The notes under the pieces were generated by a model, which saw only the letters and a program-made list of their open reading frames with translations, was not told the DNA's origin and made no database searches. This document shows positions 1,816-10,315 of a stretch of DNA of 10,500 nucleotides, in pieces. The DNA lies in assembly GCA_010028615.1 (NCBI GenBank), contig RHAS01000018.1, positions 1 through 10,500 of the forward strand. Direction: 5' to 3'. Within the stretch, counting starts at the first letter, position 1; every line of letters begins with the position of its first letter. The position numbers and the translations under genes are program-made. Source of the stretch: Actinomycetota bacterium (lineage in GTDB: Bacteria; Actinomycetota; Actinomycetes; Actinomycetales; Microbacteriaceae).

Positions 1816-3042
1816 CTAGTTGCGACTAACCAGCTTCTGCAAGGCGAATCTGGCTATTACCGCTACAAACAAAATGCCAAGGCTAATTGACACTGCGGGC
1901 CCCGGCACATTTATCAGCAATAGAAGGCACAGCATCAAACCAAATATGGCAACAACAATGGGCTGTTTACGCTCAAAGCTGGAAAAGCCAATTATCCAGG
2001 CGGTGTATTGGTTGGTTTCAATTAGCACAATGGCACCGACAGCGATAAGTATTTCAGCTAGCCAAGGTGCACCAAAACGATTGCGTTTTTCAAAAACTTT
2101 AGGTAGTTCACGATCCTCGGCCATAGTTGCCGCTGTTCTAGAAACGCCTGCTAGCAGCGCCAAAATAGATCCCAGGCTGGCAGCTAGAACTACCGCATCA
2201 ATCACAACCGGGTTAAACCATGGTGCGCTTCGGTACAGAACTGCCTCAAAGGTAGCTAGGGGCATGGGTTCGTTTTCAGAGCCGATCACTCCAGATACGA
2301 CTATGGCTAATAGGAAGTAGAGCAAAATTACTATTCCAAGTGAAATAACAATCGCCCGCGGGATGTTCTTTTTGGGGTCTTTCACTTCATCACCTAAGGT
2401 GGCAACGCGTGCGTAACCGGCAAAGGCGAAAAAGATTATCGCTGCTGCCGCTAGTGTTCCATGGTTAAGGTTTGGTTGAAGCTGAAAATTAGTTATTACC
2501 TGACTATCAAAGCCGTTATTTAATCCAACAACTACAGAAAAGATAAGAAAACTCAGTGTTACAGTTGCCAAAATCGCAGCGACAAGTGCCGTCCGATTTA
2601 TGCCCAGCAGATTCAATGAAGTCATTAGCAACACTGCCAAAGATGCAACGTGAAGTTCATTCAAAAGAGTTGGCGGAACTGGGTTTAGCACCGTTCCCTG
2701 CGGCACAACATAGAGCTGAATGATTAGCGCGATTGCTGCAATCGATGCGATCTTGCCAAAAACAAAGGAAAAGCCAGCGACAAAACTAACGCTCTTTGGT
2801 AGATACACCCTGGAGTATGCATAAACACCTCCAGCCCTAGAGATACCGCTAGCTAATTGATAAACCGAAGCGGCATTTAGTGAGGCCACCAGAGCGGCTA
2901 GTAGCAGTGCAAAAAAGAATGAGCCTTTAGCAGATTGGTAGGCAGCACTCCAAACAAAGAAAACACCGGCACCTAGCATCGAGGCAACCCCAATGGCGAT
3001 AGCTCCTAGAAGAGATAGCTGCTGCTTTTTAGACGTGGCCAT
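1816..3042 (-). CDS. APC-superfamily amino acid permease, apparently lacking most of TM10
   Basis: Integral membrane amino acid/polyamine transporter of the APC fold; the substrate cannot be read from sequence. Family landmarks are the TM1 unwound segment ASMLGAGVF (20-28), the TM6 and following loop FAFAGYARVATLGDE (205-219) then VKDPKKNIPRAI, and the TM8-9 loop SRTAATMAEDRELPKVF (from ~301). Eleven hydrophobic helices are clear. The family's twelve-helix order is kept until IIGFSSF (350-356), where relatives continue with the rest of TM10. Here a charged ERKQP follows at once, then TM11 and TM12, so roughly 14-18 residues seem to be missing in frame. I choose ATG at 3042 (408 aa) over TTG at 3045; both lie within the 3' end of prs (14-bp overlap for the ATG), and no strong ribosome binding site is visible. 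It is an unrelated function sandwiched between prs and rplY. With TM10 broken the protein may be non-functional or misoriented. Confidence 0.88.
   Translation of the reverse strand: MATSKKQQLSLLGAIAIGVASMLGAGVFFVWSAAYQSAKGSFFFALLLAALVASLNAASVYQLASGISRAGGVYAYSRVYLPKSVSFVAGFSFVFGKIASIAAIALIIQLYVVPQGTVLNPVPPTLLNELHVASLAVLLMTSLNLLGINRTALVAAILATVTLSFLIFSVVVGLNNGFDSQVITNFQLQPNLNHGTLAAAAIIFFAFAGYARVATLGDEVKDPKKNIPRAIVISLGIVILLYFLLAIVVSGVIGSENEPMPLATFEAVLYRSAPWFNPVVIDAVVLAASLGSILALLAGVSRTAATMAEDRELPKVFEKRNRFGAPWLAEILIAVGAIVLIETNQYTAWIIGFSSFERKQPIVVAIFGLMLCLLLLINVPGPAVSISLGILFVAVIARFALQKLVSRN
1972..1977 (-). other. Probable in-frame deletion point in the APC permease (TM10)
   Basis: The Phe codon (1977-1975) ends IIGFSSF, the first half of TM10. 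The Glu codon (1974-1972) begins the charged linker ERKQP that normally comes after TM10. Adjacent placement implies roughly 14-18 codons are absent with the frame kept. The exact extent depends on comparison with a close homologue. Confidence 0.55.
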
Positions 3043-4003
3043 CAAAGAGGATGGTCACGCTGTCATCGTTGAATACCGATGAGATTGCCCTTGCCACAAG
3101 TGGTGCAATCGATAGCACGGTTAGCTTTTCAAATTGCTTCTCGGCAGGAATTGGTAGCGTATTGGTGACAATCACGTTATCAACCTCAGGTCCAGAAAGT
3201 CTCTCCACTGCTGGATCGCTAAAGACCGCGTGAGTTGCAGCTACGATGATTCTTCCTGCACCGTTATCACGTAGGGCTTTAGCAGCTGCAACGATGGTTC
3301 CGGCGGTGTCAATCATGTCATCGACAAGAACACAGACTCGTCCTTCAACCTCACCAACCAACTCATTAACCTGCACTTGGTTTGGCTTGGTCGGGTCACG
3401 ACGCTTGTGAATAATCGCAAGTGGTGCGCCTAGCCGATCTGCCCAGATATCAGCAACTCTTACTCGACCTGAATCTGGCGAAACTACGGTTAGGTTATCC
3501 GCACCAAAGGTTTGCTTTACGTGATCGGCAAGAAGAGGTAATGCCCAGAGGTGATCTACCGGTCCATCAAAGAAACCTTGTATCTGTGGTGAATGCAAAT
3601 CAACTGACATCAAACGATCAGCACCTGCGGCTTTATAGAGATCTGCAATCAGTCTTGCCGAAATAGGTTCACGTCCCTTGTGCTTTTTATCTTGTCTGGC
3701 GTAAGGGAAGAAGGGTGAGACTACGGTAATTCTCTTTGCGCTAGCTCGCTTTAGTGCATCGATCATAATCAGCTGTTCCATGAGTTGATCATTTATCGGT
3801 GCGCAGTGCGATTGCAGCACAAAGGCATCTACTCCACGAACCGACTCATCGAAACGTACGAAGAGTTCACCGTTAGCGAAGCTATAGGAAGTTGTTGGCA
3901 CGAGCTCGGTACCAAGCAGGGTTGCTATTTCTTGAGCAAGTTCGGGGTGTGCCCTACCGCTAGCTAAAACCAATCGTTTCTGTCCCGATGTTTTTATCTG
4001 CAC
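3029..4003 (-). CDS. prs: Ribose-phosphate pyrophosphokinase (PRPP synthetase)
   Basis: Transfers pyrophosphate from ATP to ribose 5-phosphate to make PRPP for purine, pyrimidine, His, Trp and NAD synthesis in the cytoplasm. The 324-residue product is full length. Visible are YARQDKKHKGREPISA (101-116), the metal/ATP-site DLHSPQIQGFFD (135-146) with His137, PDSGRVRVADIWADRL (176-191), the catalytic flexible loop KRRD (200-203), and the ribose-phosphate loop VLVDDMIDTAGTI (225-237). The start is GTG at 4003, giving the usual N-terminus that leads into GQKRLVLASGRAHPELA; AAAGGA lies about 10 nt upstream. The gap from the glmU stop is 14 bp, so glmU and prs are almost certainly co-transcribed, as in many bacteria. 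The downstream permease begins inside its last codons. Confidence 0.98.
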   Translation of the reverse strand: MQIKTSGQKRLVLASGRAHPELAQEIATLLGTELVPTTSYSFANGELFVRFDESVRGVDAFVLQSHCAPINDQLMEQLIMIDALKRASAKRITVVSPFFPYARQDKKHKGREPISARLIADLYKAAGADRLMSVDLHSPQIQGFFDGPVDHLWALPLLADHVKQTFGADNLTVVSPDSGRVRVADIWADRLGAPLAIIHKRRDPTKPNQVQVNELVGEVEGRVCVLVDDMIDTAGTIVAAAKALRDNGAGRIIVAATHAVFSDPAVERLSGPEVDNVIVTNTLPIPAEKQFEKLTVLSIAPLVARAISSVFNDDSVTILFDGHV

Positions 4004-5579: not shown

Positions 5580-6488
5580 TCAGCTTTCCAGCCTTGTTCC
5601 AAGGTAACTAGGTAGCGCTGGTATGCCGATCAGGCCCAGTTCTGCGAGGGTTTCGGCTGCCTTTTTGGCAAGGTCTGCATCATCAAATAGTCCAATTACC
5701 GTTGGCCCACTTCCAGTCACCATTGCCTTGAGTGCACCAGAGAGCTTTAGCACATCGATGGTATTGCTGATGCTCGGAAGCAAGGTTATTGCCGCTGGTT
5801 CTAAGTCGTTCCCCATCATGCTTGCTAGCTGTTGGATATCGGTTAGCGGTATGGCTAGGTCACTAAATGGACTGCTCTGACCGATTTCATCAAAGCGAGC
5901 AAAAACTTGCGGGGTGGATAGCCCCTCATGGCTAATAGCGATGACAAAGTGGCAAGCAAAGCCAAAAGGTTCTAATTGCCGCAGTTTCTCTCCGCGGTTG
6001 GTGCCGATGGCAAGCCCACCGAGCAAACTAAACGGGACATCGCTACCAAACTGCTTTGCCAACTCGATTAGCTCTTCGTTGGATAAAAGCTTTTTACCAT
6101 GCACCTGGTTTAGATAATGATTGCAGCCAACCAGCATGGCAGCGGCATCGGCTGAGCCACCAGCCATACCGCCGGCGACGGGTATCTTCTTATCGATCAA
6201 GATGTCAAAACCAGCTAACTTGACACCTTGCGCGCTGAACATTTTTTCAGCAACTAGATAAACCAGATTGTTTTGATCGGTTGGCACAGCGTTCACGTGT
6301 CTTGCCGGTAGCGTAGCTGAGCTAACCGAAATACCAACTGCTTGATTTTCAACTGTTGGGACTAACCTCAAGCGGTCCCTAAGATCTAGTTCTAGATAAA
6401 GCGAATTAACCGGGTGATAACCATCATTAGCTAATTCGGCGACTTGGAAAACAAGATTGATTTTTGCTGGAGCGGATACCGTAATCAT
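5580..6488 (-). CDS. ispE: 4-diphosphocytidyl-2-C-methyl-D-erythritol kinase
   Basis: GHMP-superfamily kinase that phosphorylates CDP-methylerythritol with ATP, the fourth step of the MEP isoprenoid pathway. The 302-residue product has APAKINL (6-12) with catalytic Lys9, the glycine-rich ATP loop PVAGGMAGGSADAAA (103-117; Met replaces the more usual Leu), FGSDVPF (147-153) with catalytic Asp150, and the third GHMP motif VTGSGPTVIGLF (257-268). I choose ATG at 6488 rather than the TTG at 6530. It gives the canonical short N-terminus MITVSAPAKINL, is preceded by a GCAGGT ribosome binding site, and forms a classic ATGA overlap with the stop of the preceding SRPBCC-like gene. The longer form would add 14 unconserved residues inside the upstream gene. 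Expression is probably translationally coupled to the upstream rsmA unit. Confidence 0.97.
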   Translation of the reverse strand: MITVSAPAKINLVFQVAELANDGYHPVNSLYLELDLRDRLRLVPTVENQAVGISVSSATLPARHVNAVPTDQNNLVYLVAEKMFSAQGVKLAGFDILIDKKIPVAGGMAGGSADAAAMLVGCNHYLNQVHGKKLLSNEELIELAKQFGSDVPFSLLGGLAIGTNRGEKLRQLEPFGFACHFVIAISHEGLSTPQVFARFDEIGQSSPFSDLAIPLTDIQQLASMMGNDLEPAAITLLPSISNTIDVLKLSGALKAMVTGSGPTVIGLFDDADLAKKAAETLAELGLIGIPALPSYLGTRLES

Positions 6489-7132
6489 CTTTTTACCTGC
6501 TCGGTGATCTGCAGAATCAATGCTTGCCAATACTTATTCGCCTCACGTCTTTTCGCAGCGTCATTTAGAAACTCATGCTCGATGAGAAGATTGCAGTTAG
6601 CACCTGCAGCTTCAAAAATCAGGGTTGCTCGGGTTTGGTTAGTAAAACCAATAATGATTTTTTCGTCCTGTTGCAGCTTTAGGAATCGATTGAAGTTATC
6701 GCCATAAAGAGATGAAGCAGTGAAGATGTTGTAACTAAGCGCTGCCGTGGTCGGTATCTCCGCGGTTATTCGAAGTAGAAGCTCGTCAGCAGCTGTTGAT
6801 TTTGATTGAGCCCGCCATTTCAAATACATCAGTGCAATTGAATTAGCCCACCACTTTTGCACTCGGTAATCATTCTGCAGAAAATTAGCTATTTGGGTCT
6901 GCTTAGCTTCTCTTAGATCGCTTGCAAAAATCAGTTCTAGCCAGGTTTCCCGCTGCTTACCGGTATTGGCCAAAAGCAGATCGGCTGCTGGATTATCGGT
7001 ATAGGGTCTATCTGGGATTAGCATCGCGCGCTTTCCCGATTTACGGGTCTGACGGTCTTTTATCTCTGTATCAACAGGTGCAACGGGTAAATCTTGGAAA
7101 ATATCTGTCAATTTCTTCTTGCGACCAATCAT
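6485..7132 (-). CDS. Uncharacterised protein, probable SRPBCC/AHSA1-like with helical N-terminus
   Basis: No gene name can be given. The 215-residue product has a basic, probably disordered N-terminus (1-~48). A helical segment follows, with TGKQRETWLELI (57-68) and an IANFLQ...WWANSIALMY block (81-103). This resembles the DUF4287-like helical domain found before SRPBCC folds in actinobacterial proteins. The remainder (~115-212) looks like a shortened SRPBCC (Bet v1-like) domain: strands KIIIGF (148-153) and LLIEHEFL (172-179), then a C-terminal helix with NKYWQALILQI, the usual place and pattern for that fold. SRPBCC domains bind hydrophobic ligands or act as chaperone cofactors; no ligand can be deduced. 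There is no signal peptide or membrane helix. The ATG at 7132 overlaps the rsmA stop (TAATG) and its TGA overlaps the ispE start (ATGA), so it is coupled on both sides. The family call is tentative; the gene call is firm. Confidence 0.8.
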   Translation of the reverse strand: MIGRKKKLTDIFQDLPVAPVDTEIKDRQTRKSGKRAMLIPDRPYTDNPAADLLLANTGKQRETWLELIFASDLREAKQTQIANFLQNDYRVQKWWANSIALMYLKWRAQSKSTAADELLLRITAEIPTTAALSYNIFTASSLYGDNFNRFLKLQQDEKIIIGFTNQTRATLIFEAAGANCNLLIEHEFLNDAAKRREANKYWQALILQITEQVKR

Positions 7133-7968: not shown

Positions 7969-8879
7969 TAGATATCTGCCGACCAGGATCCATAGACAGC
8001 TTCGGTATTTTTGGTAATCTGCTCAGCCATTTCGTCTTCACTAATTTCACGAACCTCGGCCATTTTTCTGACCGTGATTGGAATCAAATAGGGCGAGTTA
8101 GGTCTACCACGATAGGGCTCAGGTGTTAAAAACGGCGCATCTGTCTCAACCAGAATCAGTTCTTTAGGAAGCAGCGCTAAAGCATCTCGCAAACTCTGGT
8201 TCTTCTTGAAAGTTACCGTACCGGCAAATGATGCATACCAACCGTGCTCTTTGAGGATGGTTGCTAGCTCAACATCTCCACTAAAACAGTGAAATACCGT
8301 GCGCTCTGGTGCCCCTACTCTGAGTAGGGTTGCCACCACATCCTCGTGGGCATCACGATCGTGAATCTGCAGAGCGATGTTGTTTTCTTTGGCAATCTGG
8401 ATATGCTCTTCGAAACTGTGCTGCTGGAGGAAAGTTCGCTCTGCTTCGGTGCGGAAGTAATCAAGCCCGGTCTCACCGACTGCTCTAACCCTAGGTTGGC
8501 TTGCTAGTTTGGCAATCTCGGCTATGGCAGCATCTAATTCAGCAAGGCTTTCATACTCAGCAGCAACATTTGGATGCAGTGCCACTGCAGCTACCAGCCT
8601 TGGTTCAATCGCGGCTATTTCGGCAGACCATTTCGAGGTCTCTACCGAGCCTCCGACTTGAACTCCTCCTAGGATTCCTGCTTGGTTGGCTAGTTCCAGA
8701 TGCTCGCGGTAGTCCATTGGATTTTCACCATCGGCGATCTCCAAGTGGGTGTGGTTATCGTAAGTACCAACTCTTAGCGGTTCTGGCAGATCTGGATAAC
8801 TAAGGTCTCGCTTTGAGCCGTCTTCTGCCTTTCGGTCGCGTACCCTGATGTAGTTTTCGCTAGGCAGATCTTTACTCAT
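7968..8879 (-). CDS. tatD: TatD-family metal-dependent hydrolase / DNase
   Basis: TatD proteins are cytoplasmic TIM-barrel metallohydrolases with 3'-5' exonuclease activity. Numbered from the ATG at 8879 (303 aa), the metal ligands are all present: YDNHTH (40-45, His43 and His45), VGETGLDY (134-141, Glu136), QIHDRD (171-176, His173), FHCFSGD (196-202, His197) and VETDAPFLTP (244-253, Asp247). A charged ~38-residue N-terminal extension precedes the barrel, as in related actinobacterial TatD proteins. I choose ATG 8879, an 8-bp overlap with the metG stop (ATGAGTAA), over the ATG at 8909, which would overlap metG by 38 bp and add ten unconserved residues. No strong ribosome binding site is visible, so coupling to metG translation is likely. 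If metG is really broken, note that the intact downstream metG frame still terminates here, but few ribosomes would reach it. Confidence 0.96.
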   Translation of the reverse strand: MSKDLPSENYIRVRDRKAEDGSKRDLSYPDLPEPLRVGTYDNHTHLEIADGENPMDYREHLELANQAGILGGVQVGGSVETSKWSAEIAAIEPRLVAAVALHPNVAAEYESLAELDAAIAEIAKLASQPRVRAVGETGLDYFRTEAERTFLQQHSFEEHIQIAKENNIALQIHDRDAHEDVVATLLRVGAPERTVFHCFSGDVELATILKEHGWYASFAGTVTFKKNQSLRDALALLPKELILVETDAPFLTPEPYRGRPNSPYLIPITVRKMAEVREISEDEMAEQITKNTEAVYGSWSADI

Positions 8880-10315
8880 CTTTACTTTCGATGCGTGGGA
8901 AAAGCGCATCTAAATCGCCAACTGTTGAATTGCCGAGTTGACCCCAATTGCCCGCCTCAGAAATATTCTGGTCGGCTAAATCCCCCAAGCTATTTGCTGT
9001 GAGCGCTGACCATAACTTGCCGGTCGCTTTAGGCATTACTGGTGAAAGCAAAATAGTAGGTGCCCTTAGTCCCTCACAAGCGCAGTAAAGCACAGTTGCT
9101 AATCTTTCACGATTTGCCTCGTCTTTAGCTAGCTGCCAAGGCTCTTCAATGGTTATGTAGTTGTTGAGTTCATCCACTAGTGTCCAGACACTAATAATTG
9201 CCTCAGTTATAGCGGTGCGGTCGATTGCTTCATTTGCGGATATTGCCGCGGACTCGGCAAGAGCAATAAGTTTCTTATCGGAAGCGGAATATTCAGCGGG
9301 ACTAGGTATCACGCCGTCAAAATATCTTTTGACCATCGCAATTGTTCTTGAAGCCAAATTACCAAAACCGTTTGCCAGCTCTGCTTGATATCTAGCTGAC
9401 AGATCTTCCCAACCCGTGGCCGAAAATTTGACCAGGGATAGGTAATCCGGCGGCCATCAGCATGGCAGGCCAAATCACGGCGTGAAAACGCAAGATGTCC
9501 TTGCCCACCACTTGAACGTTAGCTGGCCAGTAGTTTCTGAATTTAGATTCGTCTTCGCCGTATCCGATTGCGGTCACATAATTTAGTAGAGCGTCGAACC
9601 AGACATAGGTGATGTGTGTATCATCCCAGGGAATATCTATTCCCCAGTCGAATTTCTCTTTCGATCTGGATATCGAGAGATCATCAAGGCCTCGAGAGAC
9701 AAAGGAAACTACTTCGTTTCTGGCCGATTCCGGAGCGATGAATTCTGTATTTTGGTTGTAGTGATCCAACAGTGGTTGCTGGAACTGGCTGAGTCTAAAA
9801 AAATAATTAGTTTCTTCTAGCTCTTCAACCGGCTTTGAGTGAATAGCGCAAACTTCTTGGCCCTGGTACTCCCCACTGCCTTCAACTAAATCTGACTTGT
9901 TCTTATACTCTTCACAGCCAACGCAGTATGCGCCTTTGAATGCCCCCTGATAAATAAACCCCTCATCATAGAGTTTTTGCATGAATCGCTGAACGTTACG
10001 CTTATGCCTGTCCTCAGTGGTTCTAATGAAGTCTTGGTTATCAATATCTATGGTCTCCAAAAGTGGTAGCCAGGCATCATGCACCAATCGGTCTGTCCAT
10101 GCCTGAGGAGTTGAGTTATTGGCTTGGGCGGTGCGCAACACTTTTTCACCGTGCTCGTCGGTACCCAGTAGAAGAAAAGAATCCTCGCCCCTAGCCCGAT
10201 GCCAGCGAGCTAGAACATCGGCGGCTACCTCGGTATAGGCGTGACCGATGTGTGGCGCATCGTTTACATAAAAGATGGGCGTAGTGATATAAAAAGTGTT
10301 CTTTTCGGCGGTCAT
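8872..10315 (-). pseudogene. metG: Methionyl-tRNA synthetase, broken by internal deletion with frameshift (KMSKS lost)
   Basis: MetRS charges tRNA-Met. The 5' part (10315-9413, 301 codons) carries the class I HIGH motif (22-25), zinc ligands Cys131, Cys134, Cys156 and His159, YVWFDALLNY (247-256), GKDILRFHA (271-279) and IFGHG (297-301). Relatives continue with WLL..GEKMSKS. Here the next recognisable sequence is WEDLSARYQAELANGFGNLA, in another frame from 9411, running through the anticodon-binding domain to a normal end LFPRIESKDE (179 codons). About 48 residues are missing, including KMSKS. The missing length must be 3n+2 bases, about 143. As written, the 5' part ends after six off-frame codons at TAG (9392-9394). 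Both parts are otherwise clean and together with the gap add up to a normal ~528 residues, so the loss is recent or an assembly error. The start ATG has AGGA ~10 nt upstream. rsmI precedes it by 11 bp. Confidence 0.9.
9409..9416 (-). other. metG: Deletion junction inside metG
   Basis: On the minus strand, the His-Gly codons CAC GGG (9418-9413) belong to the 5' frame. They are followed by a single T (9412), and then TGG (9411-9409) opens the 3' frame Trp-Glu-Asp-Leu. In family members a Trp codon follows His-Gly, so the extra T could be the remnant of that TGG, the break falling between 9412 and 9411. Confidence 0.75.

Follow-up and report, generated by a model that had tools for sequence, protein, structure and literature searches.

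The window, by which we mean the whole stretch of DNA analysed, is contig C80 in its entirety (10,500 nt), one of the 316 contigs (1,211,570 bases) that make up the draft genome G000, with a listed completeness of 80.29% and a listed contamination of 2.74%. Its minus strand carries pth, rplY (L25/Ctc), an APC permease gene, prs, glmU, ispE, a 215-aa ORF, ksgA, a TatD-family DNase gene (tatD) and metG, the gene for methionyl-tRNA synthetase (MetRS). The 215-aa ORF (6485-7132, minus strand), located between ksgA and ispE, received no NCBIfam name, and its one Pfam match, to DUF4287, is weak and under the cut-off; a 174-aa ORF at 1-522, likewise given no name by NCBIfam, runs past the contig edge. 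The closest relative of the metG locus among those fetched is a metagenome-assembled genome (MAG) of Rhodoluna sp., represented by locus L036. The end of metG overlaps the start of tatD by 38 nt (8872-8909, minus strand), and an equal overlap follows for L036 from where the matches lie in it (6550, and 6584 plus the stop). Among the loci that carry a name, those most similar in metG come from MAGs designated Rhodoluna, Aquiluna, Microbacteriaceae or Micrococcales, names that point to a small aquatic actinobacterium as the host. The features at issue are the following.

9413..10315, minus strand: metG 5' piece, the catalytic domain with the HIGH motif, 301 aa, reading up to GQIFGHG (Pfam, TIGR00398)
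8872..9411, minus strand: metG 3' piece, the anticodon-binding domain, 179 aa plus stop, in another frame and starting with WEDLSARY (Pfam, TIGR00398)
9411..9415, minus strand: metG join, lacking 143 nt that L036 has, KMSKS and its surroundings (blastn)
1816..3045, minus strand: APC permease gene with an internal loss of 19 residues (57 nt, in frame) at 1974/1975 (protein alignment)

The original prediction, that metG is split into a clean MetRS up to IFGHG and a clean MetRS from WEDLSARY onward, was borne out: the two pieces, 10315-9413 and 9411-8872, lie in different frames and are separated by the single base 9412, with Pfam placing the catalytic domain (PF09334, profile positions 1-319 of 391) in the 5' piece and the anticodon-binding domains in the 3' piece. 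In the TIGR00398 profile search, the pieces covered positions 1-319 and 367-506 of 530 and scored 319.7 and 93 bits, each below the curated cut-off of 336.35. A functional MetRS would be expected to occupy one open frame scoring above this cut-off and to contain the KMSKS motif; the window offers neither, the motif being absent at the join. The blastn alignment to L036 passes from positions 987/988 of the queried strand to L036 positions 5902/6046, that is, 143 nt are absent from the metG of the window and, this number not being a multiple of three, the frame is broken. The missing length had been put at about 48 codons, not a multiple of three and including KMSKS, and the relatives agree: a stretch of 48 residues separates the points matching the two piece ends in all 120 of the best MetRS relatives listed (of 7,999 scored), and all 120 carry KMSKS. 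A copy of the missing 143-nt stretch was searched for elsewhere in the bin and not found.

L036 provides the sister sequence that had been named as the refuting comparison, with about 143 extra bases, a single frame and KMSKS, but its nucleotide identity to the window is 82% and 77% on the two sides of the join, which marks it as a different species; it therefore illustrates a normal metG rather than the state of the strain in the window. No intact metG of the same species was recognisable among the 120 listed proteins (the best being 92.7 and 86.6% identical to the pieces); because the protein database was clustered at 90% identity, such a gene could hide within a cluster, and the locus search may omit records very near the genome of the window. 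The junction string, allowing at most 3 mismatches, was present in 1 of 36 genomes of the genus, G000 alone, so that the loss is not common to the relatives. A MetRS above the curated cut-off was identified in 54 of the 59 genomes searched (G000 counted), and a single intact gene is thus the expected state. Besides G000, the genomes lacking one were G015 and G022, in which the MetRS matches stop at most 12 bases from a contig end, G023, in which there are two pieces on two contigs, and G020, for which the search gave no convincing match.

The original remark that neither part of metG shows further damage holds for the two pieces, which are otherwise clean, but not for the contig, because the APC permease gene has lost the 19 residues listed above. 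These residues are present in all seven aligned relatives (the closest full-length ones among 119 other listed proteins), one of which is 98% identical to the permease of the window elsewhere.

To place these losses in the context of the draft genome, frame breaks were counted by blastx against those ORFs of a single reference, the one-contig relative G006, that are 100 aa or longer. The G000 sample consisted of 69 contigs (the window and 68 others, with C1 and C2 included to base 20,000 only), 16 of which read N throughout and were excluded from this count, leaving 53 readable contigs (273,178 nt, the window among them). As controls, 60 loci of other assemblies (548,369 nt), all from the metG neighbourhood, were taken through the identical procedure, three distant loci (L094-L096) of 63 having been omitted. 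Losses of the metG kind occur in several core genes of G000 and far less in the controls: G000 showed eight frame-breaking internal losses in 243 gene matches that span 207,831 aligned nt, and the controls one, with only 2 residues missing, in 459 gene matches that span 461,403 aligned nt (conditional binomial P = 0.0006). In each of the eight, one gene lies in two frames, with 11 to 67 G006 residues absent between the aligned pieces; affected are lepA, smc (in two places), atpA, metG, a trpE-like gene and genes of 515 and 745 aa. The weakest event is that in the 745-aa gene, with 86 nt between the pieces and about 52% identity; when this event (on L103) and the single control event are dropped, the count becomes 7 versus 0 (P = 0.0003).

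In-frame gaps of at least 12 residues numbered 18 in 208 kb of G000 and 25 in 461 kb of the controls, with no clear overall excess, and many of them are natural length differences. No weight was given to gaps in the variable N-terminal region of rho. In-frame losses between conserved flanks were nevertheless observed, judged against G006 as the only reference, in rpoA (22 residues), which is found in one place in the bin, and in ctaD (14 residues). In the case of atpA, the bin contains solely two pieces on one contig, plus a weak match (E = 7.8e-6) to another gene. Among the 36 genomes of the genus (G000 counted), 25 have atpA above the cut-off, and G000 is the sole one listing it as two complementary pieces of one contig; the ten other genomes without atpA above the cut-off have no match, a weak match or, in the case of G002 and G008, a fragment that lies at the end of a contig. 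The pattern that would identify an assembly artefact, namely, damage of one kind that recurs in further core genes of the genome and not in its relatives, is thus present, with eight events set against one small one and atpA split.

The contigs of G000 also bear the mark of an unusual pipeline, in the form of a 30-nt grid: the lengths of 43 of the 69 contigs, the 16 all-N contigs included, are divisible by 30 or fall one short of such a number, where 4.6 would be expected by chance, compared to 5 of 63 contigs of other assemblies (L094-L096 included). The idea that the losses themselves lie on this grid was rejected, since by our own arithmetic the positions of both joins in the window and the sizes of the losses are off it.

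Taken together, these observations make it very probable that the broken metG reflects sequence lost in the making of the draft genome rather than biology, and the cells themselves most likely possess a single normal, unbroken metG. It is the like losses in several other vital genes of the same genome that turn the break in metG into an almost certain error of the assembled sequence. Losses with clean flanks in MetRS, ATP synthase, RNA polymerase and cytochrome oxidase of one genome are not credible as biology and are what would be expected of joins made during assembly or amplification. We infer that the losing step was technical. Under the proposed mechanism, short stretches, from tens of bases to about 200, would have been lost at joins between two pieces of true sequence, and one such join in metG would have dropped 143 nt, removing KMSKS and breaking the frame. 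Candidate steps include the closing or stripping of scaffold gaps, wrong merging of contigs in thin coverage, and chimeric DNA from whole-genome amplification. Repeat-driven collapse was considered and rejected: no long repeat was seen at the join in the blastn comparison to L036, so that plain repeat collapse fails to explain the loss.

The same clean sides and absence of a long repeat are what a short-homology deletion leaves, and a genuine deletion carried by some of the population, in a rare or dying lineage, could have been assembled instead of the intact allele. This reading is improbable, because such deletions would have to recur in atpA, smc (twice), lepA, rpoA, ctaD and the permease gene of one bin, and the junction string is confined to G000 among the 36 genomes of the genus. 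Considerably less probable still is that metG is a true recent pseudogene in a cell that relies on a different MetRS, its gene lying in the portion of the genome absent from the bin. With the bin listed as 80% complete, there is room for an unseen second gene, and the original prediction had held that the cell must have another MetRS or that the sequence is incomplete or wrong. The latter option is well supported by the like losses in core genes and the second loss in the contig; the proposed search of the rest of the genome by family detected no second MetRS in the bin, from which about 20% of the genome is missing. Moreover, 54 of the 59 genomes have a MetRS above the cut-off, and other single-copy core genes are broken too. 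We assign the same very low probability to rapid genome decay, in which the short deletions in metG, atpA, rpoA, ctaD and others would be real and the functions supplied from outside or by replacement genes absent from the bin. Chimeric joins are a known type of assembly error, and the two sides of the metG join could in principle come from two different species; however, each of the two pieces finds its nearest locus in L036 (93 and 88% aa identity), and so do tatD (94%), ksgA (91%), ispE (73%) and glmU (91% over 296 aa), while the runner-up locus, L037, reaches 86 and 70% to the two pieces. A two-species chimera was accordingly rejected as next to impossible, given that both sides share the same nearest locus at matching identity.

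Loss of sequence during the making of the draft genome, the explanation that we favour, has a practical consequence: a claim based on G000 that a motif is missing, an enzyme split or an essential gene lost should not be trusted without the reads. The problem came to light from sequence alone, through a count of core genes with broken frames relative to a close complete genome.

Among the literature matches listed, the titles and the beginnings of the abstracts contained nothing on a MetRS pseudogene without KMSKS. With respect to the bacterial methionyl-tRNA synthetases of the TIGR00398 (metG) family, both pieces in the window are ordinary MetRS sequence, as judged by their identity to L036, whereas the contig that joins them lacks the KMSKS stretch and breaks the frame. 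According to PMC11017572, assembly errors account for many of the supposed pseudogenes in publicly deposited bacterial genomes. Going by its abstract, the spurious pseudogenes described there resemble the genes of G000 in being frame-broken within otherwise intact sequence and in their excess over related assemblies, but differ in that they arise through frameshifts and internal stops, whereas in G000 tens to about 200 nt are missing.
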